Of a stretch of DNA of 64,000 nucleotides, positions 14,236-50,437 are shown one piece after another. The DNA lies in assembly GCF_900111965.1 (NCBI RefSeq), contig NZ_FOJT01000004.1:124001-188000 (forward strand), read 5' to 3'. Below the pieces are notes generated by a model. That model saw nothing but the letters and a program-made list of their open reading frames with translations, had not been told where the DNA came from and ran no database searches. Each line of letters opens with the position of its first letter. Position 1 is the first letter of the stretch. This DNA comes from Flavobacterium swingsii (GTDB taxonomy: Bacteria > Bacteroidota > Bacteroidia > Flavobacteriales > Flavobacteriaceae). Both the position numbers and the translations under genes were made by a program.

Positions 14236-14368
14236 AACATCTCGTGGCTTGCAGAAGTTGGGGATTTGGTTAGCCTAAACTTTCGATTAAGCACTGAAAA
14301 TCAAAAGTACAAAACAAACTTTAAATTAAGTCCTAAAACCCCAATTTCTTAAAACCGCTGTTGTATGC
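14236..14368 (-). repeat. attC-like imperfect palindrome of unit A
   Basis: On the gene strand the arm GCGGTTTTAAGAAATTGGGG pairs with 14244-14263 on the far side (about 15 of 20 positions). It begins with GCATACAAC and shares AACAGCGGTTTTA with unit C and the CTTAATTT block with unit B. Confidence 0.6.
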
Positions 14369-14374
14369 AGGCTT

Positions 14375-16066
14375 TTATAACTTTTCTATTTTATCGCTAT
14401 ATTCTCTTTTAAGTTCGGATAATTCTTCTTCCCTTAAAAAATAATCATTTAACCATTTAAGTTGCCGAACAATTTCATCTTTTACGTATTGTTCACTTTT
14501 TTTATTTTCAAAAATTTTAAACGCATCTTCAACAATTATTTTTATTACATTTAATTTGAGTTCAATATCAATTTTTTTTGAAGATATGCTTCTAGCAATC
14601 ATAAAAAAATCATCGATATGATCGTTATACAAATTCTTCTTATTGTTTAATTTTGTTAGTAAATATGAAAAATCGTATAATGTACTTAAACCATATTTTT
14701 TCTTTTGTATTATCCATTCTTCTATTTGATGATGTTGATAAAACTCAATACCTCTATAAATTTCATTATTGATTGCTAAATCAGTAATTCTTCTTGCTCG
14801 ATATGAATATTCTTGAAAAATTTCATTTTCTTGATATTCAGTCAATGTTTTTGAATTTGTTATTGTGTCAAATAAATTATTTAATTGCCAACAGAAATTT
14901 GAATAAACATTTTTATTTTTATTTTCTATTGCAATTTGTAATGGTTTAAATAAGATATCTGGTAATTCTGTTTTTAAATAAAACCAATAATTTTTAGGAA
15001 TGGTCATTTCATAATTTCGTTCTTTTTTTAAGTTTTGCATATTATAATCCATTGTTGGAACTTCTTCATCAGAATAATTCATAGATTTTATATGTTCTTG
15101 TATTACAGAAATAACTTTATTCAGCAAGTATGATTGTTGATTGTAAAAATTATTGTTTTCAATTAATAATCTATATAAATCAATTATTGTTTCATCTATT
15201 GGATTATTTCGAAGTATTCGAATTTCGTTATTAGCTAAATGCAGATGAGTTCTTAAAAGATTATTCAAAAGTACACTTACTGTAATTTCATCAATTTCTT
15301 CAACAGATACTTTTTTAAAATGCCTGCAAATAAAATTATAAGCATATAAATTCTTAAAAATTACTTTTTTTTCTGTTTCTTTATTTAACGGAATTATTAG
15401 TTTTTCATATAAATCATTTAGTATTGTTTGTGGCAAACCCCAATCATTTTCTTTTATTGCCGAAACACCAATATCTTTTAGTTGAATTAGCTTATTCTTT
15501 TCAAGATTTTCAATCAAATTTACATCATTCTCATTATTTGGGTCGTATAAGTTGCTAATATCAATTTCTGTTACTTTTTTAATTAATTCTTTTATTGTGT
15601 CATAAGAACTAGAATGCTTAATGCATAAAATAATTAAAGGAAATTGTATAAAAAGATTACCAAAAGTGATAAAGCTCGAAAAATACAATAAAGTGATAAT
15701 TGTATTAATATTTGCAATTTGAATTGTAAAAACTGATAAACTTATAAATATAAGAGAACCACAAAAAAGACTGAATGTAAGTTTAATCCAAGTATTGTCT
15801 AAAATGAAATCAAATGAATTTCTCCTAATTTTTTTTGAAAAAGCATTGTAAACAACAAGCAGGATAGTTAAAATAAAACTTGAAAACCCTATAATTATTG
15901 AAAACAATCTTAAAATATACGATTCTGCGGATTCAATTTTTTGAAGATGAAAATAATCAGGAATTATTTGTAGAAAAGGAATTTGAACAAATATGAATAA
16001 TAACATAAAACAGAAAATTAATTTTCCATTATATAATTTTGATATTGTTTGTATGATTTCTTTCAT
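14375..16066 (-). CDS. Unrecognised membrane protein in cassette-like unit A
   Basis: I do not recognise this 563-residue protein. The N-terminal third has four hydrophobic segments (about 16-35, 50-72, 90-115 and 118-145), and the rest is a soluble, mostly helical, Asn/Ile/Lys-rich region with many charged residues. The architecture resembles DUF2254-type proteins only in its four N-terminal helices, which is weak. Base composition is visibly more AT-rich than its neighbours. The ORF fills a cassette-like unit and has no recognisable promoter of its own. Its function cannot be inferred; a membrane-bound sensor or defence role would be a guess. Confidence 0.7.
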   Translation of the reverse strand: MKEIIQTISKLYNGKLIFCFMLLFIFVQIPFLQIIPDYFHLQKIESAESYILRLFSIIIGFSSFILTILLVVYNAFSKKIRRNSFDFILDNTWIKLTFSLFCGSLIFISLSVFTIQIANINTIITLLYFSSFITFGNLFIQFPLIILCIKHSSSYDTIKELIKKVTEIDISNLYDPNNENDVNLIENLEKNKLIQLKDIGVSAIKENDWGLPQTILNDLYEKLIIPLNKETEKKVIFKNLYAYNFICRHFKKVSVEEIDEITVSVLLNNLLRTHLHLANNEIRILRNNPIDETIIDLYRLLIENNNFYNQQSYLLNKVISVIQEHIKSMNYSDEEVPTMDYNMQNLKKERNYEMTIPKNYWFYLKTELPDILFKPLQIAIENKNKNVYSNFCWQLNNLFDTITNSKTLTEYQENEIFQEYSYRARRITDLAINNEIYRGIEFYQHHQIEEWIIQKKKYGLSTLYDFSYLLTKLNNKKNLYNDHIDDFFMIARSISSKKIDIELKLNVIKIIVEDAFKIFENKKSEQYVKDEIVRQLKWLNDYFLREEELSELKREYSDKIEKL

Positions 16067-16107
16067 TCGTCATTTTTGGTAAGCTTGTATACAACTTATA
16101 GCTTTGT

Positions 16108-16143
16108 GAGGGTTTATAATTAAACCTTTAATTATAAACCCTC
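16108..16143 (-). terminator. Hairpin spanning the end of the Rieske-like gene
   Basis: A perfect 17-bp stem (16108-16124 with 16127-16143) with a CC loop contains the last codons and stop of the Rieske-like gene. No T run follows on the minus strand; the cassette-like unit A starts 13 bases further. Confidence 0.6.
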
Positions 16144-16556
16144 AAATTAGCACCACTAATTTCAACTCTATAAGGTTTTAAAGAATATTGTCCTGTGCCA
16201 ACTGCAACTCCTCCGGTGTACAAACTGTATTCTTTGCTGTCGCAAGAACATTTTCCGTTAATCCCATTTAGGGTAAGTTGCGTGCAATCACTTGGGTATT
16301 GGTTTGGGCAACTGGCTTCGAAAGCGCGATAATCATCGGTACCAACTTTCATCATAATAATTCCTTTTATTCCAGCCCCAGCATTGGTAATTAAAACAGG
16401 ATTGCTAGGAAAATTAAGGTTGCTATAAGAAGGCAAATTCGTATTTATAACTACTGAAAAAGAGTAATTTGGCAAATACGGATTGTCACTTACAACCTTA
16501 TCTTTGTGGCAAGATAAAGCAAGAATAGCTATTATTATGAGGAAATATCGTTTCAT
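16128..16556 (-). CDS. Lipoprotein with Rieske-like fold lacking cluster ligands
   Basis: A 142-residue predicted lipoprotein: signal peptide MKRYFLIIIAILALSC with the lipobox cysteine at residue 16. The second half looks like a Rieske domain: CPNQYP, then CSCDSKEYSLYTGG and the Pro-rich end LKPYRVEI. In true Rieske proteins the motifs are CxH and CxxH; here the histidines are replaced by Asn and Asp/Lys, so a [2Fe-2S] cluster is unlikely. The start is the ATG at 16556, since the longer frame would begin with TTG at 16571. A TAnnTTTG promoter lies upstream. The biological role is unknown. Confidence 0.75.
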   Translation of the reverse strand: MKRYFLIIIAILALSCHKDKVVSDNPYLPNYSFSVVINTNLPSYSNLNFPSNPVLITNAGAGIKGIIMMKVGTDDYRAFEASCPNQYPSDCTQLTLNGINGKCSCDSKEYSLYTGGVAVGTGQYSLKPYRVEISGANLRVYN

Positions 16557-16586
16557 TTTAAAAATTTTCAACCTATTTTGTTAGAA

Positions 16587-16594
16587 CAAATTTA
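16587..16594 (-). promoter_or_regulatory. Promoter -7 box of the Rieske-like gene
   Basis: On the minus strand it reads TAAATTTG, 31 bases upstream of the ATG. Confidence 0.55.
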
Positions 16595-16656
16595 ATTTAA
16601 TTAACTTTGTAATAGTATGATTGTCATATAAAATTACAAACTGAAATAAAAAATAA

Positions 16657-16664
16657 TATCTTTG
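16657..16664 (+). promoter_or_regulatory. Promoter -7 box of greA
   Basis: TATCTTTG matches TAnnTTTG. The transcript would start near 16670, directly at the leader hairpin. Confidence 0.6.
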
Positions 16665-16670
16665 CCGAAA

Positions 16671-16697
16671 GAAATCCCGTCGCGATGGGATTTTTTC
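16671..16697 (+). terminator. Terminator-like hairpin in the greA leader
   Basis: AAATCCCGT (16672-16680), loop CGCG, ATGGGATTT (16685-16693), with six Ts from 16691. It lies between the promoter and the greA start and could attenuate or stabilise the transcript. Confidence 0.55.
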
Positions 16698-16720
16698 TAT
16701 TTATATATAACGAATAAATT

Positions 16721-17197
16721 ATGAGTACAGTATCTTATTATACAGCCGAAGGATTAAAAAAACTAAAAGACGAGTTAGAACAACTCAAAGCAATTGAACG
16801 CCCAAAAGCGTCGGCAGATATTGCAGAAGCAAGAGATAAAGGTGATTTATCTGAAAATGCCGAATACGATGCTGCAAAAGAAGCACAAGGTCTTTTAGAG
16901 TTGAAAATTAAGAAAATGGAAGAAGTATATTCTAACGCTCGTTTAATCGACGAATCTCAGTTAGATGTTTCAAAAGCCTTGGTTTTATCGCATGTGAAGA
17001 TTAAAAACCAATCTAACGGAATGGAAATGTCTTACCATTTAGTTGCCGAAAGTGAAGCAGATTTGAAGACAGGGAAAATATCAGTAACTTCTCCTATCGG
17101 GAAAGGATTACTAGGAAAATCTGTTGGAGAAATTGCCGAAATTACCGTTCCTAACGGAACTCTTAAATTTGAAGTTCTAGAAATTACAAGAGATTAA
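16721..17197 (+). CDS. greA: Transcription elongation factor GreA
   Basis: GreA enters the secondary channel of RNA polymerase and triggers cleavage of backtracked RNA. The 158-residue length is exactly that of typical GreA. The N-terminal coiled coil (about 8-75) holds the conserved tip motif DLSENAEYDAAKE, whose acidic residues act at the polymerase active site. The C-terminal FKBP-like domain ends with ITSP-like ISVTSPIGKGLLGK. It has its own promoter and a leader hairpin, and is followed by the HIT gene after 57 bases. Confidence 0.96.
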   Translation: MSTVSYYTAEGLKKLKDELEQLKAIERPKASADIAEARDKGDLSENAEYDAAKEAQGLLELKIKKMEEVYSNARLIDESQLDVSKALVLSHVKIKNQSNGMEMSYHLVAESEADLKTGKISVTSPIGKGLLGKSVGEIAEITVPNGTLKFEVLEITRD

Positions 17198-17254
17198 TTT
17201 TTTAAGTTTAACTGTTTAATTGGCTAACCGATTAAACGAATAACCGATTAAACA

Positions 17255-17641
17255 ATGTCAATATTTACCAAAATAGTAAACGGAGAAATCCCTTGTTACA
17301 AAATTGCCGAAGATGACAATTTTTTAGCATTTCTCGACGTAAATCCGAATGCAAAAGGACACACTTTGTGTATTCCGAAGCAAGAAATAAACAAGATTTT
17401 CGATATAAACGATGATTTGTATTTGGGATTGATGGCTTTCGCCAAAAAAATCGCAGTTGCCTTAGAAAAATCGGTTCCGTGCAAACGAATTGGCATGGCG
17501 GTTATAGGACTAGAAGTTCCTCACGCTCACGTGCATCTTATTCCGCTTAACGAAATGGACGAAATGCGTTTTCAGAATAAAGTAAGTCTAACACAAGAAG
17601 AATTTTTAGCTTTGGTTAAAGTAATTCAAGGAAATTTATAA
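17255..17641 (+). CDS. HIT family hydrolase (HinT-like)
   Basis: A 128-residue protein of the histidine triad family, which hydrolyses nucleotide phosphoramidates and related substrates. It starts with MSIFTKIVNGEIPCYKI, as do HinT proteins, and carries the active-site motif PHAHVHLIPL near residues 91-100. The size matches single-domain HIT proteins. It is likely co-transcribed with greA, the usual neighbour in this group. The exact substrate is not predictable. Confidence 0.92.
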   Translation: MSIFTKIVNGEIPCYKIAEDDNFLAFLDVNPNAKGHTLCIPKQEINKIFDINDDLYLGLMAFAKKIAVALEKSVPCKRIGMAVIGLEVPHAHVHLIPLNEMDEMRFQNKVSLTQEEFLALVKVIQGNL

Positions 17642-17655
17642 ATTTTATTTACATC

Positions 17656-17684
17656 AAACCATCGGTTATTACTGATGGTTTTTT
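17656..17684 (+). terminator. Terminator after the HIT gene
   Basis: AACCATC (17657-17663) pairs with GATGGTT (17674-17680), extended by wobble pairs, then T run. Confidence 0.8.
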
Positions 17685-17704
17685 AATTTAATAACCACAA
17701 TACC

Positions 17705-19606
17705 ATGAAAAAAATACTGATTTTAATACTATTCACAATGAGTTTAAACGTTGTTGCGCAAAATACAATGTCACCAGAATTATTATGGAAACTAGGACGA
17801 GTTACTGCTTTAGGAATTTCTAAAGATGGAAAAAACGTAGTTTATAAAGTTTCGACACCATCAATAGAAGAAAATAAGTCGGACTCGAAATTTTATACCA
17901 TTCCAGTAATTGGAGGAAAAGCGACAGAAGTAAAAGACACCAAAGACTTATTAATTGACAAAAACATTTCTCCTGACGGAAAATATATCGTTTACAACGA
18001 AGAAGTAAAAGTTGATAAAGTTCACGGAAAAGATTATTATCCAGAATTAGATAAATCGAACGTTCAAATATACAACGGTTTAGATTATCGTCATTGGGAT
18101 ACTTGGAACGAAGGAAAATTTAACCATGTTTTTTATAAAGAAAACAAAGAAGGTTCGGTTGGAATAGATATTCTGAAAGACGAAAATTTCGATTCACCTC
18201 AAAAACCATTTGGTGGCGACGAAGATTATATTTGGTCGCCAGACAGCAAAAGTATTTTGTATGTATGCAAAAAAGAAGCGGGAACAAAATATGCTATTTC
18301 GACCAACACGAATATTTACGAATACAATCTTGAAACCCAAAAAACCATCAATAGAACCGAAGCCAATTTAGGTTACGATACCAATCCGGTTTTTTCACCA
18401 CAAGGAAATTTAACGTATTTGCAAATGAAACGCGATGGTTATGAAGCCGATAAAAACGATATTATTGTCGATTTCAAAGGCATAAAAATGAATCTAACCG
18501 CAAATTGGGATAACTCAGTTGCTAGTTTTTCTTGGAGTAAAGACGGTAAAAAAGTATATTTCCTTGCAGCAACAGACGGAACACAACAATTATTTGAAGT
18601 TAATTTTCCAGGACTAACAAGAATTGCTGTTACGGTAACTCAACTTACTTTTGGTGATTTTGATGTGCATGATATTGTAGACATTACTGCCGATAATGCG
18701 ATTGTTACAAGAACAGATATGAATCATGCATTAGAAATTTATTCATACAATTTGAAGAAAAAAACATGGTTGCAACTCACGAAAGTAAACAATGATGCTT
18801 ACGCTAAATTAAATTTACCAAAGTATGAAAGACGTTATGTAACCACAACCGATGGCAAAAAAATGTTAGTTTGGGTTATTCTTCCACCTAATTTTGATGC
18901 AACTAAGAAATATCCAACCTTATTATATTGTCAAGGCGGGCCACAAAGTCCGTTGACACAATTTTATTCTTTCCGTTGGAATTTCTCACTTATGGCATCG
19001 CAAGGATATGTCGTAGTAGCGCCAAACAGAAGAGGAATGTATGGTCACGGACAAGCTTGGAACGAGCAAATTTCTGGCGATTGGGGCGGACAAGTCATGC
19101 AAGATTACCTATCAGCAATAGATGATGTTTCTAAAGAAAATTATGTAGACAAATCTCGTTTGGGTTGTGTTGGTGCTAGTTATGGCGGATATTCGGTATT
19201 TTATTTAGCAGGAATTCACAACAACAGGTTTAAAAGTTTTATTGCCCACGATGGTGTTTTCAATACCCAAAGTATGTTTGGTACAACGGAAGAAGTTTTC
19301 TTTAACAACTGGGATTTTGGTGGTGCTTATTGGGAAAAAGACAATAAAATTGCACAACAAACCTATACTAAATTCAATCCTATAAATTATGTAGAAAAAT
19401 GGAATACACCAATTCTAATTATACAAGGCGGAAATGATTTTAGAGTACCGATCGGGCAAGGGCAAGAAGCATTTCAGGCAGCACAATTGCTAGGAATAAA
19501 AAGCAGATTTTTGTATTTCCCAGAAGAAAATCATTGGGTTTTGAAGCCACAAAATGCACAGGTTTGGCAAAAAGAATTTTACAAATGGTTGAAAGAAACG
19601 TTGTAA
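17705..19606 (+). CDS. Secreted S9 family peptidase (prolyl oligopeptidase fold)
   Basis: This 633-residue protein has a signal peptide (residues 1-19, ending VVAQ), an N-terminal beta-propeller with WD40-like repeats (about 35-370) and a C-terminal alpha/beta-hydrolase domain. The catalytic triad is visible: Ser492 in GASYGGY, Asp578 in GGNDFRVP and His610 in ENHWV. Family members remove peptides or acyl-amino acids from short peptides in the periplasm. The layout is closer to acylaminoacyl-peptidase-type than to the DPP IV homologue at 58123. It is a single-gene unit with a terminator. Confidence 0.9.
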   Translation: MKKILILILFTMSLNVVAQNTMSPELLWKLGRVTALGISKDGKNVVYKVSTPSIEENKSDSKFYTIPVIGGKATEVKDTKDLLIDKNISPDGKYIVYNEEVKVDKVHGKDYYPELDKSNVQIYNGLDYRHWDTWNEGKFNHVFYKENKEGSVGIDILKDENFDSPQKPFGGDEDYIWSPDSKSILYVCKKEAGTKYAISTNTNIYEYNLETQKTINRTEANLGYDTNPVFSPQGNLTYLQMKRDGYEADKNDIIVDFKGIKMNLTANWDNSVASFSWSKDGKKVYFLAATDGTQQLFEVNFPGLTRIAVTVTQLTFGDFDVHDIVDITADNAIVTRTDMNHALEIYSYNLKKKTWLQLTKVNNDAYAKLNLPKYERRYVTTTDGKKMLVWVILPPNFDATKKYPTLLYCQGGPQSPLTQFYSFRWNFSLMASQGYVVVAPNRRGMYGHGQAWNEQISGDWGGQVMQDYLSAIDDVSKENYVDKSRLGCVGASYGGYSVFYLAGIHNNRFKSFIAHDGVFNTQSMFGTTEEVFFNNWDFGGAYWEKDNKIAQQTYTKFNPINYVEKWNTPILIIQGGNDFRVPIGQGQEAFQAAQLLGIKSRFLYFPEENHWVLKPQNAQVWQKEFYKWLKETL

Positions 19607-19610
19607 TATC

Positions 19611-19642
19611 AAAAACCTTCAATTAAAGTTGAAGGTTTTTTT
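19611..19642 (+). terminator. Terminator after the S9 peptidase gene
   Basis: AAAAACCTTCAA (19611-19622) pairs with TTGAAGGTTTTT (19629-19640) around a 6-base loop. Confidence 0.85.
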
Positions 19643-19732
19643 ATTTCTTAATTAAAACCTAAATTGTTGTTAAATTAAAAAATAAGAAAGAACATTTTTT
19701 AATTTTACCAATCTTTAAAAAACAATAAAACT

Positions 19733-20920: not shown

Positions 20921-20940
20921 TTTTAATAGAATTATTTATA

Positions 20941-20978
20941 AAAAAAGGGAGTGTTCAAATTTGAACACTCCCTTTTTT
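20941..20978. terminator. Perfect 19-bp palindromic terminator
   Basis: AAAAAAGGGAGTGTTCAAA pairs with its exact complement at 20960-20978 with no spare loop bases. The A6 and T6 ends make it bidirectional. Confidence 0.9.
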
Positions 20979-24130: not shown

Positions 24131-27100
24131 TTATTTATTAATGTAAATCCAACCTGTTTTAGTTTCGCCATTATTTTGCTCTATTACATAGTAATAAGTT
24201 CCATCTGGTAATTGCTGACCTTTGTCTGATTGTCCGCTCCATTGGTTTGTGTAATTAGCAAAACTGTAAACTTTGGCTCCGTATCTATTAAATATTTCCA
24301 ATTGTTTTACGTTTAATCCTCTCAAATCGAAAGTGTCGTTATCGCCATCTCCATTTGGTGAAATACCTTTTTGTATTGTACATACTGAAGTTATAACATC
24401 AAATACTTGAGTACCTGTACAACCGTCAGGTATTGTAGTGATTGTTACCGTAAATGTTGTTGGAATAGTTGTTGACGGATTGTTTCTAACATATTCAGAA
24501 ACATTAAATGTATCAGAATTTGTACCAACTACAGTACCTGATGCGTTTTCCCAAATATATGTAACATTACCACTTCCTGGTGTATATGATCCACTTATAG
24601 GAGATGCTGTCAAGATATAATTTTGTCCTGCACATTCTCCATTTGTTCCAATAGGAATATTTATAGGGTCTGGAGAAACAGTTATTTGTTGTGTCGATAT
24701 ACAACCTAAATTATTAACAGCTACTGAATAAGTACCATAATTTGTAACATTTATAGTGCTTGTTGTAAGCGAAGTATCTACAATTGAGTTATAACTCCAT
24801 GTATAAGTTATCGCTGGATCAGTTATTGAAAAGTTATTAGGAACTACTGATAATGCTGCAGTCTCATTAACACATTTAACAATATTTGTTCCAGATAATG
24901 TAAAGTTCGGAACTGCATTAACTGTAAATGCTAATGATAAAGGTATAACATTAGTACAGCCATTAAGCGTTATTGTTACAGCATATGTTCCTGTTACAGT
25001 TACCGGAACAGTGTTAGTCGTTCCTGCAATAGGGTTTCCTCCTAATGTCCAAGAATATGTTGCTCCAGTAGTGTAATTTGTTGGTGTTACAATTATAGTT
25101 GCTGTGCCATCACTACAAATTGTATCATCTGCATCAGATGAAGCTATTGTTGCTGTAGGATTTACATTAATTGTAATACTTGCTGTTTCAAATACATTTG
25201 GACATCCATTTGCAGCTGCAATTGTATTTGTTACAATATAGGTACCTGAAGTACTTGCCGCTAAATCTACCTCACCAGTAACTCCATTTATAACAAGACC
25301 TGTAGTAGAAGTAAAAGCTCCTGCAACACCACCACCTGTAAAAGTTGGAGATGCAGTTCCTGCATTTTGGCAATACGGAGAACCAGCATAGCTAAATGTT
25401 GCAATTGGTAGTGTTGTAATTGTAATTGTATTTGAAGAAATAACATCTGCACAACCTCCAGAAGCAAGAATTGTATTTGTAACCGTATAAGTTCCTGGTG
25501 TACTTGTTGCTAAATCTACAACTCCAGTCGTAGAATTAATCACTAAACCTGTTGTTGAAGTAAAAGCTCCTGCAACACCACCACCTGTAAAAGTTGGAGA
25601 TGCAGTTCCTCCATTTTGACAATATGGTAACAAACCATAATTGAAGGTTGCAATTGGTAATCTTGTAATAGTTACTGGTGTTGTAGTCAAAAATGTTGGA
25701 CAACCAGCAACTGTTGCAATAGCATAGTTTACGATATAATTGCCAGGTGTACTAGTACTTGGGTTAATCGCTCCTGTTGTAGTATTAATAGTTAAACCTG
25801 CAGGGACAGCATAATAATTACCGCCGACTGTACCTGTTTGTGTTACTGTTTTTATAACAGTATCATTACTACAATATGCTGGTGCACTATAAGAAATAGT
25901 AGCATTTGCAGGCGCAGTTATCTTAATAAGCCATGTTGATGTTGATGTTGTACAGTTACCTGCTCCCAAAATCGTATTAGTAACAGTATAAGAACCTAAA
26001 GTACTTGCTCCAATATTTATTTCTCCAGTTACAGGATTAATTACTAAACCTGGCGTAGAGCTAAATGTTCCCGCTGTACCACCTGATTGAAGTGTTGGAG
26101 AAATATTTGCCCCATCCTGACAGAAAAATGATCCAGGATAACTAAAGTTAGTATAAGGACAGCAAAATGTCGGAATAGGTCCTGTTGTTTGAGTAATTCT
26201 TACAAAACCTTTATCTTGAGAAAAGTTTGTAATCATAAGAACATATACTTGTCCTGCTATAGCGCCATTTACGGTAAATGTTTCTGTAACCGCACCAGAA
26301 AAACTACAAAAATTTCCTGTAGGAGCCGCATTAGCTGTACTTATTGAAGAACATGCTATTGATGTACTAGCGTAAGGTCCCCAAGCTACAAAATCGACAT
26401 CTAAACCTGCTCCCGTAAATGTATTATTTCTACTTTGTTCTAGGAAAAACGTATAATTACCATTTGTAGGTATTGTTAAGTAATAAAATGTTGGTGCTGG
26501 TGCACTTCCTAAACACCCTACAGTAGTACTAGTTGTAGAGTATGGGCTAACTGGGTTAGGTAATGTAGGAACTCCCACATTATTTGGTATTATAACTGGG
26601 GTTATAGCACACAATGGCAAGGCAGTAGGACACGTAATTTGCGTTGTTCCTATACATAAATCAAATTGTATTGTCGAAGCAGTTGTACTAGTAGAATATA
26701 CTCTTACATAATACGTTTGTCCAATTATCAATCCGTTTGTATTGTTTGATTCTGTAGCTGTTACACATCCTCCAAATTGTGTCAGGGCACCACAACTACC
26801 AGTGTATAAAGCATATTGTAATCCTGTAGGATTTGTGGCATAATTTAGTCCTAATAATGAGACGTGGTGTGTGGTTGCTGTAGCGGTAAAATGATACCAA
26901 ACATCATCATTATCTGCTGTTGCTCCACAAGAATTGGCTTCAGGTGATGCAGTCGCAGCATTAACAGTTCCTGGTACCGTTTGTAAACAATTTGTATTTT
27001 GATTTACCGGTGCCAGTATAGACCCTATACATTCATCATTTATAAGTAATGTAGTAAAGCTTCTAGGTCCTCCCCAAAGACTAACCTCAGTAGGAGAACA

Positions 27101-30100
27101 ACTTGCTCTCACATAGTATTCATAACAAGTGCCTGGAAGTAATCCAGTTGTAATATATGGATTCGTCGTTGCAGTAGCCCAGCCAGTAGCTGTTGCTGTT
27201 GGTGCTGGTGATCCACAAGGTAAAACCAATACTTGCCATGTTGTGGCTTGACTACCATTAGGATTTAATGGTTGGTTCCAGCCTAATATTGCTGTTGTTT
27301 GTGTAATATTAGAAACTGTTAATAATTTTGGTTTAGCACATGGTGGTGGTGGACCACAAGTCACATTAGAAGTCCAACCTGCTCCTTGACCACTACTATC
27401 ACTTCTAAATCTAAAAGTCAAACAACCATCAGTACTTGATGATGTAAATGGGCCTGGAATTGCAGTTCCCCAATAAGATCCAGCGACTCCGCCAGGTACA
27501 TTTCCTGCTCCATTTGCACTAGCAATTTGTGGTGCAGCAACGCTATTTCCATCAAAAACATATAATCCGTCCCAATTAGTTTCTGTGTCAAATGATGTAA
27601 AGGTCACTGTAACAACATCACCAGGATTACTTGGACATATTGTAATAACCGAATTTTCATTATTTCCATAAATTGCAGTAGGTCCTCCAGTATCGAAGAA
27701 ACCTCCTCCACAACCAGGGAATGTAGTTGCAGTTTTTACTCCAGACCATGGTCCTGTATCACTTGCAGAACAAACACCTCTTACATAAAAATCATAACAT
27801 GTACCTGGGTTTAATCCTGTCATAACGAAAGGATTTGTAGGAGCAAGAACCCATCCTGTAGATGCTCCTGTTGGCACTGGAGAACCACAAGGCAATGCAA
27901 TGCAATTCCATGAAGTTGCAGCTCCAGCATTTGTCCACCCTACAGTAACGGTAGATGATGTAATTGCTGTAGTTGTTAATGTTGTTGGCGCTAAACACGT
28001 AGGTAGTGTTGTAAATGTTTTAACTATCGACCAGTTACTATTACTTGCGCCACAAACTGCTCTTACATAAAAATCATAAGTTGTATTTTGTGTAAGTAAA
28101 GTAACAGCAAGAGGATTTGTTGTCACTCCTGGATATGTAGGTGTTGATGCTGCTGTAGGCGCTGGAGAACCTGTAGGAACTAAATAAACATCCCAAAGCG
28201 TTGATCCATTTGGTGTCCAACCTAAATTTGCAGTTGTTGTAGTAATGGCTGTGTTTGTTAGATTTGTTGGGTCTAAACACGCTGCCTGACTACAATTAAA
28301 TGAAGTTGCATATAACTGCCCTAAAGACAATACTGTTGTCGGTTTTGTATATATCGTTTGTGAAAAAGGAGCGTTATTAATGATTGAAATATTAACCCTA
28401 GTAGGAACTGTACCCACTACTGTCCAAACTAATTCGAAAGGATAATTTTGACATAATGTAACTGGTACATTTAATGAAGTTCCTGTTGTAAATTGAGGTC
28501 CTAAGGTTTTTATAACATAACCATTTTGTCTAACTTCCATTTGTGCACCTGACCATTGCGCAGTTGTTGATGCTAATCTAAATGTATAAGTACACTGATC
28601 TACAACTTCACAAATATTAGTGTTAAATAGGTAAGGTCCAGCCCATGGGCTAAATATACCTGCTCCGCAATCTGATCTTACCCAGTATTGATAAGCAGTT
28701 CCTATTGTGAGTCCTGTATTAACAAGGAAGTTTGTGTTTGTATTGGCTGTAACACCAGCTCCTGTAGGAATTGAACCTCCAGCTGGTTGTACTGCTACTT
28801 GCCAAGATGATGCGCCAGTAGGATTAGTCCAAGATAAACTTGCGGTAGTCGTTCCTATATTTGTAGTAGGTAATCCCGCAGGAGGCGTACACGTTACTGG
28901 TTGAATGACTAATGTGTACGGTGTAGATTGCGTCGTAGCATTTGTTGAAATAACAAAAACATAAGTTTGACCTGCAACAACCGCTAAACTAGGGATAACC
29001 CTAGGTGTATTAGTAGTGGCGGCAACACCTGCTAAACAAGCCACGCCAACATTTGCACAACCATTATAAACAAAAATAGCAGAGTTAGTGTTTGTTGGGG
29101 TCATTGTTACACTTATATTCTCTGTCGTTGTAGCTGTATAAGAATAAAACACCTCATAACCCTGAAGATAATTCGTTGCTCCACCTGCACATCCACCACC
29201 TTGCGGTACATCTACCTCATCACCATATAAAATAGTATCACTAGAGTGACTATATGTTGAGCTACCTATTACAATAGGTGATACACAGATTGATCCTAAA
29301 GGTTTTGTAGAAAAAAGTAGCGACATCCAAGCGCTATTAACTCCTCCTGCACAAAGAGAACGAACGTAAAAAATATAATCAGTTCCTGGTGCAAGTCCTG
29401 TTGCAGGATAAGTTGGCGTTCCAGAAACTATTACTCCAGCTCCTGTTGGTGTTGAAGCAACTGGAAGAACTTCTATTTCCCATTGTGTTGCGCTTCCAAC
29501 ATTTGTCCAATTTAAAGTTGCGGAAACTGAAGCTAAATTAGTTACATTTAAAGCTGTTGGGTTTAAACATTGCTCAACAACTTTAACATCATCTATTAAC
29601 CATCTGTCACCAGTAGTTGGACCTGCTGGTTGTGTATTAACCTTAACAAATGCGATATATAATTGTGTGCCTGCTGGGTAAGCAGCCAAACTAACTATTT
29701 TTTCTTCATAAGTAAGCGGGTTTACTGTATTAAGTGTTAAATCAGTCCAAGTTTGTACCGTTGTATATGCCGCTTGGTTGGTTTGACTCGCATTTGTAGA
29801 AACTCTAATTTCGTAAGTAGTACCATTGTCAGGTATAATTGTTTGTCTGGTAAAAAAGCGTAATTGCGAATTGACCGTCACCGTAATTTGAGGAGACACT
29901 AGCCAATCTTCTGACGTGTTTCCTGCTAATATGTTTTCACGATCAACAATTGCGGCTTTCAGGCCAGAATTGACCCTTGTTAGGTCGGTTGTTTCGGCCC
30001 AGCCAACTGCTGTTCCTACCCCATTATCTAAAACTATCCAGTTACCTGGTGTTGTAGGTGGAAATGTAGCTCCTTCAAATCCTTCATTTATTTGGGAAAA

Positions 30101-30151
30101 TCCCAAAAAAGGAAGAATCATCATGAAAAATGCTAAAATAATTTTTTTCAT
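24131..30151 (-). CDS. Giant T9SS type-B adhesin with FN3 and Ig-like repeats
   Basis: A 2006-residue secreted protein. Signal peptide 1-20; then a choice-of-anchor-type domain (about 21-190); FN3-like modules with the pattern ATLNWT...YxFYVRSxC at roughly 195-285, 425-515, 630-720, 722-815 and 945-1045; a CUB-like domain near 817-940; Ig/PKD-like repeats around 1350-1700; and the C-terminal type-B sorting domain (about 1920-2006, ISPNGDGDNDTFDLRGL through IYINK). The sorting domain directs export by the type IX system to the cell surface. In gliding flavobacteria such proteins resemble SprB and aid motility or attachment. Its promoter box is at 30191-30198. The PorP/SprF and OmpA genes follow on the same strand. 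Confidence 0.93.
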   Translation of the reverse strand: MKKIILAFFMMILPFLGFSQINEGFEGATFPPTTPGNWIVLDNGVGTAVGWAETTDLTRVNSGLKAAIVDRENILAGNTSEDWLVSPQITVTVNSQLRFFTRQTIIPDNGTTYEIRVSTNASQTNQAAYTTVQTWTDLTLNTVNPLTYEEKIVSLAAYPAGTQLYIAFVKVNTQPAGPTTGDRWLIDDVKVVEQCLNPTALNVTNLASVSATLNWTNVGSATQWEIEVLPVASTPTGAGVIVSGTPTYPATGLAPGTDYIFYVRSLCAGGVNSAWMSLLFSTKPLGSICVSPIVIGSSTYSHSSDTILYGDEVDVPQGGGCAGGATNYLQGYEVFYSYTATTTENISVTMTPTNTNSAIFVYNGCANVGVACLAGVAATTNTPRVIPSLAVVAGQTYVFVISTNATTQSTPYTLVIQPVTCTPPAGLPTTNIGTTTASLSWTNPTGASSWQVAVQPAGGSIPTGAGVTANTNTNFLVNTGLTIGTAYQYWVRSDCGAGIFSPWAGPYLFNTNICEVVDQCTYTFRLASTTAQWSGAQMEVRQNGYVIKTLGPQFTTGTSLNVPVTLCQNYPFELVWTVVGTVPTRVNISIINNAPFSQTIYTKPTTVLSLGQLYATSFNCSQAACLDPTNLTNTAITTTTANLGWTPNGSTLWDVYLVPTGSPAPTAASTPTYPGVTTNPLAVTLLTQNTTYDFYVRAVCGASNSNWSIVKTFTTLPTCLAPTTLTTTAITSSTVTVGWTNAGAATSWNCIALPCGSPVPTGASTGWVLAPTNPFVMTGLNPGTCYDFYVRGVCSASDTGPWSGVKTATTFPGCGGGFFDTGGPTAIYGNNENSVITICPSNPGDVVTVTFTSFDTETNWDGLYVFDGNSVAAPQIASANGAGNVPGGVAGSYWGTAIPGPFTSSSTDGCLTFRFRSDSSGQGAGWTSNVTCGPPPPCAKPKLLTVSNITQTTAILGWNQPLNPNGSQATTWQVLVLPCGSPAPTATATGWATATTNPYITTGLLPGTCYEYYVRASCSPTEVSLWGGPRSFTTLLINDECIGSILAPVNQNTNCLQTVPGTVNAATASPEANSCGATADNDDVWYHFTATATTHHVSLLGLNYATNPTGLQYALYTGSCGALTQFGGCVTATESNNTNGLIIGQTYYVRVYSTSTTASTIQFDLCIGTTQITCPTALPLCAITPVIIPNNVGVPTLPNPVSPYSTTSTTVGCLGSAPAPTFYYLTIPTNGNYTFFLEQSRNNTFTGAGLDVDFVAWGPYASTSIACSSISTANAAPTGNFCSFSGAVTETFTVNGAIAGQVYVLMITNFSQDKGFVRITQTTGPIPTFCCPYTNFSYPGSFFCQDGANISPTLQSGGTAGTFSSTPGLVINPVTGEINIGASTLGSYTVTNTILGAGNCTTSTSTWLIKITAPANATISYSAPAYCSNDTVIKTVTQTGTVGGNYYAVPAGLTINTTTGAINPSTSTPGNYIVNYAIATVAGCPTFLTTTPVTITRLPIATFNYGLLPYCQNGGTASPTFTGGGVAGAFTSTTGLVINSTTGVVDLATSTPGTYTVTNTILASGGCADVISSNTITITTLPIATFSYAGSPYCQNAGTASPTFTGGGVAGAFTSTTGLVINGVTGEVDLAASTSGTYIVTNTIAAANGCPNVFETASITINVNPTATIASSDADDTICSDGTATIIVTPTNYTTGATYSWTLGGNPIAGTTNTVPVTVTGTYAVTITLNGCTNVIPLSLAFTVNAVPNFTLSGTNIVKCVNETAALSVVPNNFSITDPAITYTWSYNSIVDTSLTTSTINVTNYGTYSVAVNNLGCISTQQITVSPDPINIPIGTNGECAGQNYILTASPISGSYTPGSGNVTYIWENASGTVVGTNSDTFNVSEYVRNNPSTTIPTTFTVTITTIPDGCTGTQVFDVITSVCTIQKGISPNGDGDNDTFDLRGLNVKQLEIFNRYGAKVYSFANYTNQWSGQSDKGQQLPDGTYYYVIEQNNGETKTGWIYINK
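25290..25630 (-). repeat. Near-identical internal repeats in the adhesin gene
   Basis: A block centred on 25310-25375 and its copy about 246 bases away at 25556-25620 are almost identical at the DNA level (both contain GCAACACCACCACCTGTAAA). They encode the protein repeat PTFTGGGVAGAFTSTTGLVI twice. The 82-residue unit looks recently duplicated or converted. Confidence 0.8.
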
Positions 30152-31695: not shown

Positions 31696-32339
31696 TTAGT
31701 GGCAAGCTAAAAACGAAATACTGCTTATATGAAATTTTTGAAATCTATTTTTTGGAGAAAAACTAAAGACAGAATTATACTTTCAGACTCATTTTCTTTA
31801 TCTGTTGTAGAAGTGATTGAGGAAATAGACAATATAGACTCAGAAATCAGTGATGATCTATTTTATGAGATAATTTCTAAAAAAAATATAACTCAATTTG
31901 AAGCAAACGAAATTTATATTTTTTTACCGATAGCTTTTGCTCAACTTTGGGTATCAAAAGCAAATTGGCATGAAGAATACAATGAAATACTTCCAAACAA
32001 AAAAGAAGTGTCGAAAAGATACGATGAAACTGAATCCTTTCAAATAATAATTCAAATAGTTAAAGATTATTTTGAAAATAAACCTTCAAGAAATACTATA
32101 ATTCAAATTGGTGGAAGAAGTGCGGAAATTAATGCGATGAATAAGTTGATACTAGAAGGCGGAAAAGTTGAAGATGTTAAAATGACAAAGACAACAATAA
32201 TAAGATAGCCTGCCACTAACACACGCTACAAGCAATTTGGGTATTTGGCTTAATTTGAAATTGGTTTTGTATTTGGAAGATTAGGCAAATCCGAATAATG
32301 GGCTTAATTTAGTCCCAAACTGCTTGTAGCGCCAGAACG
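31696..32339 (+). mobile_element. Integron-cassette-like unit B
   Basis: One ORF fills 75 percent of the 644-base unit. The 5' edge TTAGTGGCAAGCTA (31696-31709) is complementary (13 of 14) to TAGCCTGCCACTAA (32206-32219), which contains the stop codon. The 3' part is an attC-like palindrome ending AACG before TTAA. If the unit closed into a circle at G/TT, R'' GCCACTAAC would face a perfect GTTAGTGGC. The start codon lies 33 bases from the edge. This is the clearest of the three units. Confidence 0.6.
31729..32208 (+). CDS. Unrecognised small protein in cassette-like unit B
   Basis: I do not recognise this 159-residue protein. It has no signal peptide or membrane segment. The first 20 residues are basic with a KFLKSIFWRKTK segment, the middle is acidic and helical (EVIEEIDNIDSEISDD), and the C-terminal part contains an IIQIGGRSAEINAMNKL stretch. 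The stop codon TAG lies inside the terminal repeat of the unit. It has no promoter of its own and is not related in sequence to the ORFs of units A and C. Function unknown. Confidence 0.75.
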   Translation: MKFLKSIFWRKTKDRIILSDSFSLSVVEVIEEIDNIDSEISDDLFYEIISKKNITQFEANEIYIFLPIAFAQLWVSKANWHEEYNEILPNKKEVSKRYDETESFQIIIQIVKDYFENKPSRNTIIQIGGRSAEINAMNKLILEGGKVEDVKMTKTTIIR

Positions 32340-41074: not shown

Positions 41075-41222
41075 AAGGAGCTACTCCAGCTATACACTAC
41101 AAGCTTTTTTTCTCTCGTTTGTTTTTTTTCAAGCCACAAAAGGAGCTTCTTGCAGTCGCTCTTTTCTGTCAGAAAAAAATACAACGAGACTCAAAAGGCT
41201 TTCCGTTTCTATCTGGGCTAAA
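41075..41222 (+). repeat. Dispersed-type repeat after rodA
   Basis: Noncoding sequence beginning AAGGAGCTACTCCAGCTATA and ending in ATCTGGGCTAAA. The pattern of GAGC/GCTC boxes and T-rich segments resembles a repeat I recall from Flavobacterium intergenic regions. An ORF could be drawn through it but has no gene-like features. Confidence 0.5.
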
Positions 41223-41230
41223 ATTCCTCT

Positions 41231-44377: not shown

Positions 44378-44382
44378 ATTAC

Positions 44383-44407
44383 AAACCACCTTCGGGTGGT
44401 TTTTTTA
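44383..44407. terminator. Terminator between convergent genes
   Basis: AAACCACC (44383-44390), loop TTCG, GGTGGTTT (44395-44402), then T run. Confidence 0.88.
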
Positions 44408-44431
44408 TAATAAAATGTTTGGAATGCGATA

Positions 44432-46033: not shown

Positions 46034-46120
46034 GAAACTTAATTTAATCAGTACAAAATAACGACTATATTTAGTGGAAACGAAATAATTTTAAATTTGT
46101 TTAACCTTTTTCAAATAAAT

Positions 46121-46804: not shown

Positions 46805-46875
46805 TTTGTCGATTTTATTTGTGATGATTTAAAATAATTTATAATTTTATTCAGAACTATAAATTTTCCTCAGGT

Positions 46876-47736
46876 ATGACGTTAAGAACTACCCTAACCA
46901 TGATAAAGCTTTCTTCCGTCGTTTTTGTATCTACAACTATGGTTTTTGCAGTAAAATATTACGATAGCCAAAGTAAAAACAAAAAGCTAAAGGAAACAAT
47001 TCAAATAGACAAAAAAACCTATGCGAATGATTTGAAAGAAATTTTCAATCGTTATGATTCTGAATTGCTAAAAAACAAAAACTTAATTCAATCTTCGAGT
47101 ATTTTAAAACAAGGAAAAGAAACTATTATTAATAAAAATGATTTAAAAATCGTTCGAGATTCAAATGATAGCTCTGAATTAATTAAAAACAATCCTATTT
47201 TAAGTAAAATAGATTCATTAGAAACTAGTTTAAGAAAGCAAAGTGATGAGAATAAATCACTTACGAATCAGGTAAGTATTTTGATTAATAAAAACAGAGA
47301 ATTACAAAAGCAAAGCTCGAATAACGAAAATACGATAACGGTTACTAAAAATCTAACAGCAATAAATGTGTATGCAAAAGCAATGAAAATTGTGTCTAAC
47401 AATATCATCGAAACCAAACGTTTTAGTAACACCGAGCAAATAAAAATCTGTTTTACTTTGTTAGAAAACAAAGCCGCTCTAAAAGGAAACAAAGATTTAT
47501 ACATTCAAATTGTAAATCCGAAAAATAAAATTGTAAGCAAAAATGGTGAGTTTGTAGAAGACAAAAACAAATTATTAGACTATACTGCAAAAACAAATGT
47601 TTTTTATAACAACGACCAACTCGATGTTTGCGTTTTTGTAGATCCCAATAAAAATGATATAGTAAAAGGAGATTACGAAATAAATATTTTTTCGGGAATC
47701 AACTTAATAGGAAACACAGTTTTTTCCCTCAAATAA
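46876..47736 (+). CDS. Unrecognised membrane-anchored coiled-coil protein
   Basis: A 286-residue protein I do not recognise. An N-terminal anchor helix (about 10-27) is followed by a Lys/Asn-rich coiled-coil region (about 30-160). The C-terminal domain (about 165-286) is beta-rich with several short strands (KICFTLLENKAAL, DLYIQIVNPKNKI, LDVCVFVDP) and ends GNTVFSLK. It probably faces the periplasm. It is divergent from comF and ends at a terminator. No function is proposed. Confidence 0.75.
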   Translation: MTLRTTLTMIKLSSVVFVSTTMVFAVKYYDSQSKNKKLKETIQIDKKTYANDLKEIFNRYDSELLKNKNLIQSSSILKQGKETIINKNDLKIVRDSNDSSELIKNNPILSKIDSLETSLRKQSDENKSLTNQVSILINKNRELQKQSSNNENTITVTKNLTAINVYAKAMKIVSNNIIETKRFSNTEQIKICFTLLENKAALKGNKDLYIQIVNPKNKIVSKNGEFVEDKNKLLDYTAKTNVFYNNDQLDVCVFVDPNKNDIVKGDYEINIFSGINLIGNTVFSLK

Positions 47737-47756
47737 TAAGTTTAAAAACAATATTT

Positions 47757-47825
47757 TACCGCAAATTCGCAAGTTAAGTAATTTAGATTGGTTTATTTAA
47801 TTAGCGAATTTTCGGTATTTTTTTT
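47757..47825 (+). terminator. Terminator-like hairpin before glyS
   Basis: TACCGCAAATTCGC (47757-47770) pairs with GCGAATTTTCGGTA (47804-47817) with one mismatch, then a long T run. Confidence 0.75.
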
Positions 47826-47950
47826 AAAATTAAATTTTCTTTTCTAAGAAATACACAACCATTTCTTTTGGGACTTTTGCGTTAAAAATAACCAAACTCA
47901 TTTTTTGTCACGCGCTAAAAATTTTTTCTAAATTTTTCATTCCCTTTTCT

Positions 47951-47958
47951 TATTTTTG
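47951..47958 (+). promoter_or_regulatory. Promoter -7 box of glyS
   Basis: TATTTTTG matches TAnnTTTG and ends 5 bases before the start codon, so a leaderless or very short-leader transcript would result. Confidence 0.5.
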
Positions 47959-47962
47959 CAAC

Positions 47963-49504
47963 ATGGCAAAACAAGAAGATTTATTTAAGAACGTAATTTC
48001 GCACGCAAAAGAATACGGATTTATTTTTCCGTCGAGCGAAATTTACGATGGTTTGAGCGCAGTATATGATTATGCTCAAAATGGTGCAGAACTAAAGAAA
48101 AACATTAGAGAATATTGGTGGAAATCGATGGTGCAAATGCACGAAAATATTGTAGGTATTGATGCCGCAATATTAATGCATCCAACGACTTGGAAGGCTT
48201 CCGGTCACGTAGATGCTTTCAATGATCCATTAATAGACAATAAAGATTCCAAAAAAAGATACAGAGCTGACGTTTTAATCGAGGATTATGCCGAGAAATT
48301 AAACCAGAAAGCCGAAAAAGAAATCGAAAAAGCAAGTATTCGCTTTGGCGAAAGCTTTAATCGTGAGGAATTTGTAACTACAAATGCTCGTGTGGTCGAA
48401 TATCTGTCTAAAAAGAACGAAATTCTAGCAAGAATGGCTCGTTCGTTAGAAACTGAAAATCTAGCCGACGTAAAAGCATTAATCGAAGAATTAGAAATTG
48501 CTTGTCCAGATTCAGGATCGAGAAATTGGACTGAAGTAAAGCAATTTAACCTGATGTTTGGCACAAAAATCGGAGCATCGGCAGAATCTGCGATGGATTT
48601 ATATTTGCGTCCAGAAACAGCACAAGGTATTTTTGTAAACTTCTTAAATGTTCAAAAATCGGGTCGTATGAAAATTCCTTTCGGAATCGCACAAACCGGA
48701 AAAGCGTTTAGAAACGAAATCGTTGCCCGTCAATTTATATTCAGAATGCGTGAATTCGAACAAATGGAAATGCAATTTTTTGTAAAACCAGGCGAAGAGA
48801 TGAAGTATTACGAATATTGGAAAACCACGCGTTTAAACTGGCATTTATCACTCGGATTAGGAAAAGAAAATTATCGTTTTCATGACCACGAAAAATTAGC
48901 ACATTATGCAAATGCAGCGGCCGATATCGAGTTTAATTTTCCATTTGGATTCAAAGAATTAGAAGGAATTCATTCTCGTACTGATTTCGATTTGAAAGCA
49001 CATGAGAAATTTTCAGGAAAAAAATTACAATATTTTGATACCGAAACCAATGCAAATTATACGCCGTATGTTGTAGAAACATCGGTAGGATTAGACAGAA
49101 TGTTCTTGGCAGTTTTTTCAAATTCATTAAAAGAAGAAACTTTAGAAGACGGTTCAACAAGAACAGTTTTGCAATTACCATCGGTTTTAGCGCCTACAAA
49201 AGCTGCCGTTTTACCATTGGTAAAAAAAGACGGTTTGCCAGAAGTTGCCAGAAAAATCATAGAAGATTTAAAATGGGATTTCAATGTGGCTTATGATGAG
49301 AAAGATGCCGTTGGAAGACGTTACAGAAGACAAGATGCTTTGGGAACACCATTTTGTATCACAGTCGATCATCAAACTTTAGAAGACGAAACGGTAACTA
49401 TTCGTCATCGTGATACTATGAAACAAGATCGAGTTAAAATTTCTGAACTAAGAAATATCATTAACAATGAAGTTTCAGTAAAAAACTGGTTAATGAAAAT
49501 GTAG
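47963..49504 (+). CDS. glyS: Glycine-tRNA ligase, class II single-chain form
   Basis: This enzyme charges tRNA-Gly with glycine in the cytosol. The 513-residue protein is the homodimeric form of the eukaryote/archaea type and not the alpha2beta2 form. Class II motifs are visible: the RPETAQGIFVNF block, the ARQFIFRMREFEQMEMQFF stretch and the C-terminal anticodon-binding domain (about 400-513). The N-terminal KEYGFIFPSSEIY is also typical. A terminator follows the stop. Confidence 0.95.
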   Translation: MAKQEDLFKNVISHAKEYGFIFPSSEIYDGLSAVYDYAQNGAELKKNIREYWWKSMVQMHENIVGIDAAILMHPTTWKASGHVDAFNDPLIDNKDSKKRYRADVLIEDYAEKLNQKAEKEIEKASIRFGESFNREEFVTTNARVVEYLSKKNEILARMARSLETENLADVKALIEELEIACPDSGSRNWTEVKQFNLMFGTKIGASAESAMDLYLRPETAQGIFVNFLNVQKSGRMKIPFGIAQTGKAFRNEIVARQFIFRMREFEQMEMQFFVKPGEEMKYYEYWKTTRLNWHLSLGLGKENYRFHDHEKLAHYANAAADIEFNFPFGFKELEGIHSRTDFDLKAHEKFSGKKLQYFDTETNANYTPYVVETSVGLDRMFLAVFSNSLKEETLEDGSTRTVLQLPSVLAPTKAAVLPLVKKDGLPEVARKIIEDLKWDFNVAYDEKDAVGRRYRRQDALGTPFCITVDHQTLEDETVTIRHRDTMKQDRVKISELRNIINNEVSVKNWLMKM

Positions 49505-49530
49505 TTTGATTTAAAACTTACTAAAAAACA

Positions 49531-49564
49531 AAAATCCGAATAGCAATATTCGGATTTTTTTGTG
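49531..49564 (+). terminator. Terminator after glyS
   Basis: AAAATCCGAATA (49531-49542), loop GCAA, TATTCGGATTTT (49547-49558), then T run. A near copy lies inverted at 50438. Confidence 0.9.
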
Positions 49565-49581
49565 GTATATTGAGCCTTATA

Positions 49582-49677
49582 TGTCTCGCCGGCTTTATGG
49601 CGGTTGCGGAAATTTACCACAAAATATTACAAATACAGAGCAAGCCTAGCAGTTCCATAAAACCGCTGTTAGCGGAT
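49582..49677 (-). repeat. attC-like imperfect palindrome of unit C
   Basis: Arm CGGCTTTATGG (49590-49600) pairs with CCATAAAACCG (49655-49665), 10 of 11. On the gene strand it begins CCGCTAACAGCGGTTTTATGG, sharing AACAGCGGTTTTA with unit A. Confidence 0.55.
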
Positions 49678-50355
49678 GTTTTCTTTTCTGTAAACTAATA
49701 TTTCAGGTGTATTAACATATTCATCTTCTTTTCTCCATTCTGAAATTTTCAATTCGTTAACAGGTTGTAGATTTTCTGTTTTCAATATTTCAATTGCAAC
49801 ATTCATTTTTTTGATTATGAAATCCGAAGTTAGTTTATTTATTATTATTGGAGTTTTCATAATTATATTTCCATTTCTCCAAATGATTAAATATTTACAA
49901 GGTAATAAACTCCATTTTGAATTTGCATATTTTGTATTTAGTTCAGTTAGTTTTTTGTGATTAATAATATTTTGTTCGGTTTCAATTCGCTCAAAATACA
50001 CATTAAATATTAAAGCACTTGAACGATTTCTGTCAACATAAGTTAACCAATCATAATATATATCAAATATAAAACCTTTGTAATTTCCAGTTATCCCTCT
50101 ATATTTATTTACTTTTTCTACTTTAAAACCAAGTGAAATTAACTTTTTAAAACTTTCACTTTCAATTATTTCACAATGCCTTTTATATCCCAGTTTTTTT
50201 GTTAAAAGCCCAAATGAGATAACAAAAAATGTAATCAGACAAAAAGCAATTAATGAGATTAGTAAATTTTTAGTTGTCAAATAAGTGATTACAGAAATTG
50301 GTATATTAAAGTAAAAAGAGATTATTATTTCTTCTTTTAATTCTGATTTTTTCAT
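49669..50355 (-). CDS. Unrecognised membrane protein in cassette-like unit C
   Basis: I do not recognise this 228-residue protein. The N-terminus has two hydrophobic segments (about 13-29 and 30-52), so it is a small membrane protein with a cytosolic C-terminal region of about 170 residues. The tail contains KGFIFDIYYDWL and several Lys/Ile/Asn-rich helices and strands. The stop codon TAA overlaps the terminal repeat of the unit. Base composition looks AT-rich against its neighbours. It has no relation visible to the ORFs of units A and B. Confidence 0.7.
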   Translation of the reverse strand: MKKSELKEEIIISFYFNIPISVITYLTTKNLLISLIAFCLITFFVISFGLLTKKLGYKRHCEIIESESFKKLISLGFKVEKVNKYRGITGNYKGFIFDIYYDWLTYVDRNRSSALIFNVYFERIETEQNIINHKKLTELNTKYANSKWSLLPCKYLIIWRNGNIIMKTPIIINKLTSDFIIKKMNVAIEILKTENLQPVNELKISEWRKEDEYVNTPEILVYRKENIR

Positions 50356-50437
50356 TTAATTTCAATTGTTATTCCGTAGCACGAAAATATCCGATAACTT
50401 TGGGATAATAGATGTATAAGTATAAAATTTAAAACAA

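Follow-up and report, generated by a model that had tools for sequence, protein, structure and literature searches.

Sedentary chromosomal integrons consist of cassettes with one gene or none, lined up on the same strand, with a folded palindromic site (attC) behind each gene. The 5' edge of such a cassette pairs with the far arm of its site, the crossover falls at G|TT, a distinct first site (attI) precedes the cassettes, and single cassettes are also found outside the array. All of these traits recur in the system described here, which came to light in a stretch of 64,000 nucleotides from Flavobacterium swingsii (NCBI RefSeq assembly GCF_900111965.1, contig NZ_FOJT01000004.1, positions 124,001 to 188,000 of the forward strand), hereafter called the window. 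Three scattered units of this window, A, B and C, belong, as we conclude with good confidence, to a chromosomal integron-like system as its mobile cassettes and were inserted outside the array. The system differs from integrons in its recombinase, which lacks the insert specific to the integron integrase IntI and carries an N-terminal domain, in the pairing arm of its sites, and in the place of the array, which follows the recombinase gene on its 3' side and shares its strand. The system would work like an integron but, having no IntI insert, falls outside the definition by IntI and would thus be a variant of the integron.

According to the parts of PMC7790495 drawn on here, cassette capture requires the IntI-specific helix I2, which occurs in no other protein, and attempts to reconstruct how integrons reached single-strand recombination are hampered because intermediates are lacking. 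With a relative that heads cassette arrays and has no I2, the origin of single-strand recombination becomes directly testable, and the system may show a second way in which folded single strands of DNA are used for gene capture. Such a relative would also give access to a pool of genes, with sites in 80 of 101 Flavobacterium genomes, that is missed by integron surveys, because those checked, in their portions on integrase selection, pick integrases by the IntI-specific domain (PMC9668308; PMC2426708). In a literature search that covered few subscription journals and no preprints, the titles and abstract beginnings of the matches listed (at most 20 per query) described neither cassette arrays in Flavobacterium nor an integron-like system without the IntI insert.

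Two further systems invite comparison. Integron cassettes also enter the chromosome at sites other than attI and attC (attG insertions; Loot et al., 2024, as cited in PMC11023631 and PMC12444791). The scattered units resemble them in exactly this respect, but their target favors AAG|TT and is thereby like the right half of the system's own attI-like site. XerA/XerC-like recombinases are the best matches of the catalytic part of the recombinase in sequence and fold; in contrast to them, it is linked to cassette arrays, and its family forms a clade apart from the five Xer rows used. An 'integron-like' subgroup of the simple tyrosine recombinases has been described, for which the insertion is called essential for integron function; the section on this subgroup names neither cassettes nor sites for members without the insertion (PMC8138268, in the part drawn on). 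The present family may belong among these insertion-less members.

Structure of units A, B and C

As the initial annotation had claimed, three units of one design are present, each with a 5' edge, a lone gene and an attC-like site. Unit A has exact edges and occupies positions 14238-16094 on the minus strand. Its 14-base 5' edge (TTGTATACAAGCTT, 16081..16094) follows the left junction ATAAG|TT, and its gene (14375..16066, 563 aa) is weakly DUF2254-like (26 bits vs. a Pfam cut-off of 28.8). The site (14238..14374) comprises an arm (14361-14374) that touches the stop codon, AAC and an imperfect palindrome, and ends at G|TT (14238/14237). Unit B, likewise with exact edges, extends over 31696-32339 on the plus strand, where the edge TTAGTGGCAAGCTA (31696..31709) stands behind the left junction CCCA|TT and is followed by a gene for 159 aa (31729..32208). 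Its site (32206..32339) consists of the arm (32206-32219) and a palindrome with the end GAACG|TT at 32339/32340, and scores 143 bits with R1, a covariance model built from 19 seed sites of which it is itself one. Unit C (about 49583-50397, minus strand) has the left junction CCAAAG|TT, the edge TTATCGGATATTTT (50384..50397) and a gene for 228 aa (49669..50355), the stop codon of which lies inside the arm (49669-49682); its site (49583..49682) is of the type AACAGCGGTTTTA...AAAGCCGGCGAGAC with a degenerate 3' end. The proteins of B and C had no match in Pfam, PADLOC matched none of the three, and among about 95 loci searched no homologues were found except the window's own. A, B and C are very likely single-gene cassettes.

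The sequence blocks said to be shared by the palindromes were found again, AACAGCGGTTTTA in A and C, CTTAATTT and TTTTGTA in A and B. The suggestion of one site family with scattered insertion was likewise supported, and the same sites recur throughout the genome: the broader covariance model R2, built from R1 matches, gave 45 matches at E<=0.01. The site of unit C is too degenerate for R2 and is among the genome matches of neither model. A plain pattern search for AACAGCGGTTTTA with one mismatch allowed delivered 27 matches, 8 of them site-like by eye, vs. 18 in the reversed control. The 3'-end pattern of the AACAGCGGTTTTA-type site was abandoned as a finder, having 18 matches vs. 30 in the control.

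Edge-arm pairing and folding of the sites

Complementarity between edge and inverse copy had been put at 13/15, 13/14 and 14/16 for A, B and C. Recomputed over 14 bases, with the edge compared to the reverse complement of the arm, the pairing itself stands while the values become 12/14 for A (differing at positions 7 and 10), 13/14 for B (position 10) and 12/14 for C (positions 4 and 10). All three units have A against G at position 10, although their edges are outside the set that yielded the position-10 rule described below. With position 10 left free, matches of at least 12/13 to each unit's arm on both strands of the window are restricted to the arm itself and its own edge, and of 200 shuffled arms only 1 (A), 0 (B) and 0 (C) scored as well in the 4.2 kb upstream.

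The rule was derived from arrays. Over 87 neighboring sites, edges pair with their own arm at a mean of 8.1/10, but with the arms of other cassettes at 3.6/10, and a pairing of at least 8/10 is reached by 69/87 own pairs vs. 77/7,482 non-own pairs. For single positions we used the 80 of 85 cassettes that passed an own-edge filter of at least 6/10, which favors positions 3-12 but neither an end at 14 nor a failure at 10. Pairing amounts to 94-100% at positions 1-8, 72% at 9, 1% at 10 and 84-92% at 11-14, then 9-35% beyond, so that base 14 forms a sharp end of the arm. A mismatch at position 10 is present in 79/80 cassettes, always with A as the edge base; in 70 of these 79, this A stands against G in the arm's reverse complement, which gives an A/C mismatch on the top strand and a T/G pair on the bottom strand. 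Outside the main array, an edge of at least 12/13 is found for 11/17 sites, and 10 of these 11 show A/G at position 10. Integrons are recognized, among other features, by a 5' edge that can pair with the outer arm belonging to the same cassette and by a crossover at G|TT, and this combination is found here as well. The usual R box of integrons has 7 bases, whereas the pairing arm here has 14 with a near-invariable mismatch at position 10.

When the palindromes are folded in isolation, that of B beats its shuffles (z -3.3 for the top and -2.1 for the bottom strand), while those of A and C do not (z -0.15 to -1.05). An alignment of nineteen sites of one type has 136 columns; in it, 15/27 predicted pairs carry compensatory changes with 96% of cells pairing, values that none of 500 shuffles reached, although the structure was derived from the very alignment tested, which favors it. 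The observed value for further pair types was reached by 20/500 shuffles, and the pairing drops by half when the structure is shifted by one column. Such covariation is what a folded strand would be expected to show, whereas it is difficult to account for in a double-stranded site. In the joined form, the bottom strand folds better in 76/80 cases (mean -28.6 vs. -24.7 kcal/mol).

The array and signs of movement

The initial annotation had seen no integrase and no array. This holds inside the window, but other contigs of the genome carry both. The genome (2.57 Mb, 10 contigs, the window being on contig C7) encodes a 347-aa tyrosine recombinase near the end of contig C10. Its gene is directly followed by a small gene whose site resembles those of A and C, then by a cassette that has no gene but a B-like site, and then by the contig end. 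Contig C3 (15.9 kb) is a cassette array in which a simple scan detects 13 same-strand sites, and further sites lie at the ends of C10 and C7. Of the 45 R2 matches, 29 lie on the C10 end, C3 and the C7 end and 16 elsewhere (by eye); as one of the 29 is a doubly assembled piece, the array has about 28 sites. Its cassettes, mostly one-gene but also gene-less, each end in a folded site and share one orientation, as in integrons. The last 585 bases of C10 are the reversed end of C7 (L038 end / L070 end), namely an exact gene-less cassette, and both ends of C3 fall within this 585-bp cassette. Thus the simplest reading would be that C10 end, C3 and C7 end form a single array whose assembly was broken at the repeated cassette. 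The scattered units A, B and C are satellites of this array elsewhere in the genome. Five of the 16 non-array sites cluster at C10:219318-225695, and the genome's only recombinase of the family is the one at the C10 end.

The type of edge that had been proposed is the one at which repeated array units are cut (G|TT). Identical copies of a mini-cassette without a gene, about 150 bases long, occur at three places of the array between different neighbors (L069:8268, L069:9910 and, on the reverse strand, L070 10847). This mini-cassette is bounded by G|TT, with a site end ...ACG before it and the TT of a new cassette start after it. It ends in a palindrome, the 16-base stem of which has no mismatch by eye, and looks like a selfish cassette. 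In addition, two cassettes of C3 (L069, 5978-6586 and 11713-12309) contain near-identical genes of about 200 aa (by eye). The repeated mini-cassette and these genes are the best internal evidence for the movement of exact units. Another cassette of the same contig (L069:12460-13821) carries a gene for a TIR-SIR2 protein that matches models of Thoeris-type and related anti-phage defense.

Integrons have attI next to the integrase gene, and a counterpart is found here. A TATA-like ... AG|TT motif lies behind the stop codon of the recombinase gene in 72/78 loci at a median distance of about 102 bases, compared with 17% of shuffles; the motif is loose, and in a few loci an earlier match seems to have been taken. 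At position 10 after it, 67/72 loci have A. Judged from the cassette edge that follows, this motif may act as attI. Of the nine scattered single cassettes with a found edge, 6 have AAG before TT, a context of only 1.5% of the TT in the window. This favored target AAG|TT resembles the right half of the attI-like site, and scattered insertion at attI-like half sites would be a reasonable explanation. In sum, an integron-like platform with a recombinase that lacks the IntI insert is likely.

Linkage and distribution of sites and recombinase

We compared the loci of the best 80 of at least 549 relatives of the recombinase. R1 gave 80 matches (E<=1e-3) near these 80 recombinase genes; in 78/80 cases, from 37 loci, the match follows the gene and has the same strand. 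For R2 the figure is 117/119 (by eye), where the number of matches is biased, as many R1 source matches sat in loci then scanned, and the pattern of position and strand less so. No conserved chromosomal address of the platform emerged, the candidate neighbor gpmI being present in only 1/80 loci.

In 101 Flavobacterium genomes including the present one, 80 have sites and 49 the recombinase (E<=1e-60); carriers have a median of 7 sites vs. 3 in non-carriers (p = 0.0016). In a phylum sample of 395 genomes, where the recombinase threshold was 1e-90, sites occur in 71/75 carriers vs. 90/320 non-carriers (Fisher p = 6e-28). Both tests treat related genomes as independent, and the sites per genome are lower bounds, with at most 32 candidates scored per genus genome and at most 8 per phylum genome.

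Several observations weigh against the interpretation of A, B and C as mobile cassettes of this system. Recombination was not observed. The right end of unit C is degenerate (GAC|ATAT in place of GACG|TT), 6/17 sites outside the main array have no edge of at least 12, and among the 11 good edges there is one (L248) with a paired position 10. Five of the 85 array cassettes fail the own-edge filter, three of them with an intervening mini-cassette and two unexplained. The comparison with empty sites, which had been proposed as a check, was carried out for unit B and its flanks in 40 genomes including its own; in the matches listed, the flanks map apart in the relatives and no empty site could be read. 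With respect to distribution, 35/52 Flavobacterium genomes without the recombinase have sites, among them a single-contig genome with 19 (G010), as have the 90/320 phylum-sample non-carriers, in which another recombinase could act. Conversely, four phylum-sample carriers have no site match.

These many genomes with sites but no recombinase suggest a different scenario, in which another enzyme such as the host XerC/D recombines the sites and the linked recombinase is incidental. Other mobile elements do use Xer (PMC7790495, in the part drawn on). Sites without the recombinase are frequent, as are clusters of attC without an integrase in the case of integrons (PMC9668308, in the portion drawn on). 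The scenario is at odds with the position of nearly all R1 matches behind the recombinase gene on its strand, with the attI-like motif conserved together with the recombinase and with the presence of sites in almost every carrier. We therefore regard it as improbable.

The recombinase and its relation to IntI

A search for an integrase of IntI or XerC type had been recommended. It yielded the tyrosine recombinase with the array behind it, which has no IntI-specific insert and is thus by definition no IntI. The phage-integrase family has four matches in the genome, three above the cut-off; this recombinase is one of the four. The nearest named relatives of the recombinase are from Flavobacterium, the first being F. 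psychrophilum at 84%. Arg204, His294, Arg297, His320 and Tyr329, which we take to be the catalytic residues, are invariant in 36 rows, and the protein is accordingly a tyrosine recombinase with conserved catalytic residues. Both PDB and fold searches with the catalytic part put archaeal XerA (4a8e, 5hxy) first and IntI4 next. With the NCBIfam model NF040815 for XerA/XerC-like recombinases it scores 217.7 vs. a cut-off of 220, which is passed by 2/3 relatives scanned.

The distance between the motifs KGxKDR and HxLRH is 64-65 residues in 80/80 family loci, while it is 106 in all 28 scorable sequences among the 30 best IntI matches (2/30 were not scorable). Thus the IntI-specific insert of about 41 residues, the additional domain that IntI has around patch III, is absent from all 80 loci, and the alignment of IntI4 (2a3v) to the recombinase leaves out IntI4 residues 185-242. 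With the integron integrase model TIGR02249 the recombinase scores 205.3 bits vs. a cut-off of 265, and three relatives score 206-215.5; it is the best scorer of this genome, in which no IntI above the cut-off was found. A tree of 55 rows resolves the family and IntI as one clade each (100/99) and as sisters (97/83), with five long-branched Xer rows outside. The sisterhood with IntI is provisional, because only these five rows stand outside.

The N-terminal domain comprises about 60 residues with two tryptophans invariant in 30 rows aligned, and is predicted with moderate confidence to contain four strands and two helices. Pfam searches with this domain alone, from five proteins, gave nothing near the cut-off. 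The W...W pattern pointed to HARP, a structure-specific DNA-binding domain, as a possible identity. HARP of SMARCAL1 (4o66) supplied the top two Foldseek matches, which are not significant (E 0.27 and 0.32, TM 0.37), and in a second search with VIA-align HARP was not among 50 rows, the best Z of any chain being 4.5. HARP as the identity of the domain was thus not confirmed.

Could the system then be a canonical integron that has a true IntI as well as ordinary attC sites and is merely the first find in the genus? The architecture is the same, the tree with its few outgroup rows places the family beside IntI, and the arms pair like R'' and R' with edges at G|TT. As stated, however, this explanation is refuted by the missing insert, and the TIGR02249 scores speak against it too. 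Furthermore, R2 found no site at E<=1 in 30 IntI loci of only about 3.6 kb each. IntI above the cut-off occurs in 105/395 phylum-sample genomes, none of them marked as Flavobacterium, and in genomes without the family, IntI carriers have sites less often than others (17/91 vs. 73/229). A canonical integron is therefore very unlikely. Both a true IntI and the recombinase family are carried by 14 phylum-sample genomes.

Finally, intergenic repeats or terminators behind accessory genes, with edge pairing as a by-product of duplication and no recombination, would fit the terminator-like palindromes behind stop codons and the poor folding of A and C alone, but are hardly credible, since they leave unexplained the 14-base arm for the own edge with its fixed mismatch, the arrays, the identical units between different neighbors and the link to recombinase and attI-like motif.

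Proposed mechanism

For the integron-like system favored here, the following scenario could be envisioned. The platform would consist of the gene for the 347-aa recombinase, the array of about 28 sites in one orientation and, about 100 bases after the recombinase stop codon, an attI-like site. A cassette would be excised as a circle, whereby its 5' edge (TT and 12 further bases) would come to adjoin its own attC-like site and could pair with the 14-base arm at the far end of that site. The bottom strand would then form a long hairpin. Where the top strand has its A/C mismatch, this hairpin would have a T/G pair, which would be tolerated and might mark the strand and thereby the orientation. 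The recombinase, putatively the acting enzyme, would cut this single-stranded substrate at G|TT, and the cassette would enter attI or join another cassette. More rarely, insertion might take place at chromosomal AAG|TT sites resembling half of attI, which would give rise to scattered units such as A, B and C.

Beyond the three units, we consider it fairly probable that cassettes recombine as folded strands without the IntI-specific helix, by means of a lineage that is provisionally sister to IntI and widespread in Bacteroidota. The 14-base arm with its fixed A/C mismatch (T/G on the bottom strand) would serve as strand mark and might be read by the N-terminal domain. Such a system would represent either a stage of integron evolution before the insert was acquired or an independent solution.

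Surroundings of the units

Unit A has a TonB-dependent receptor gene as neighbor, unit B genes for a GTPase and an FtsX-type permease, and unit C genes for a class II tRNA synthetase and a pantothenate kinase. Similar CCGAATATTGC-based hairpins, possibly terminators, flank unit C on both sides (49530-49565 and 50440-50465). At the gathering threshold, Rfam found only a tRNA and a Flavo-1 RNA in the whole window, the latter (RF01705) at 41079-41223 with 54.2 bits. Between units A and B, the window further contains an open reading frame of 2006 aa (24131-30151).

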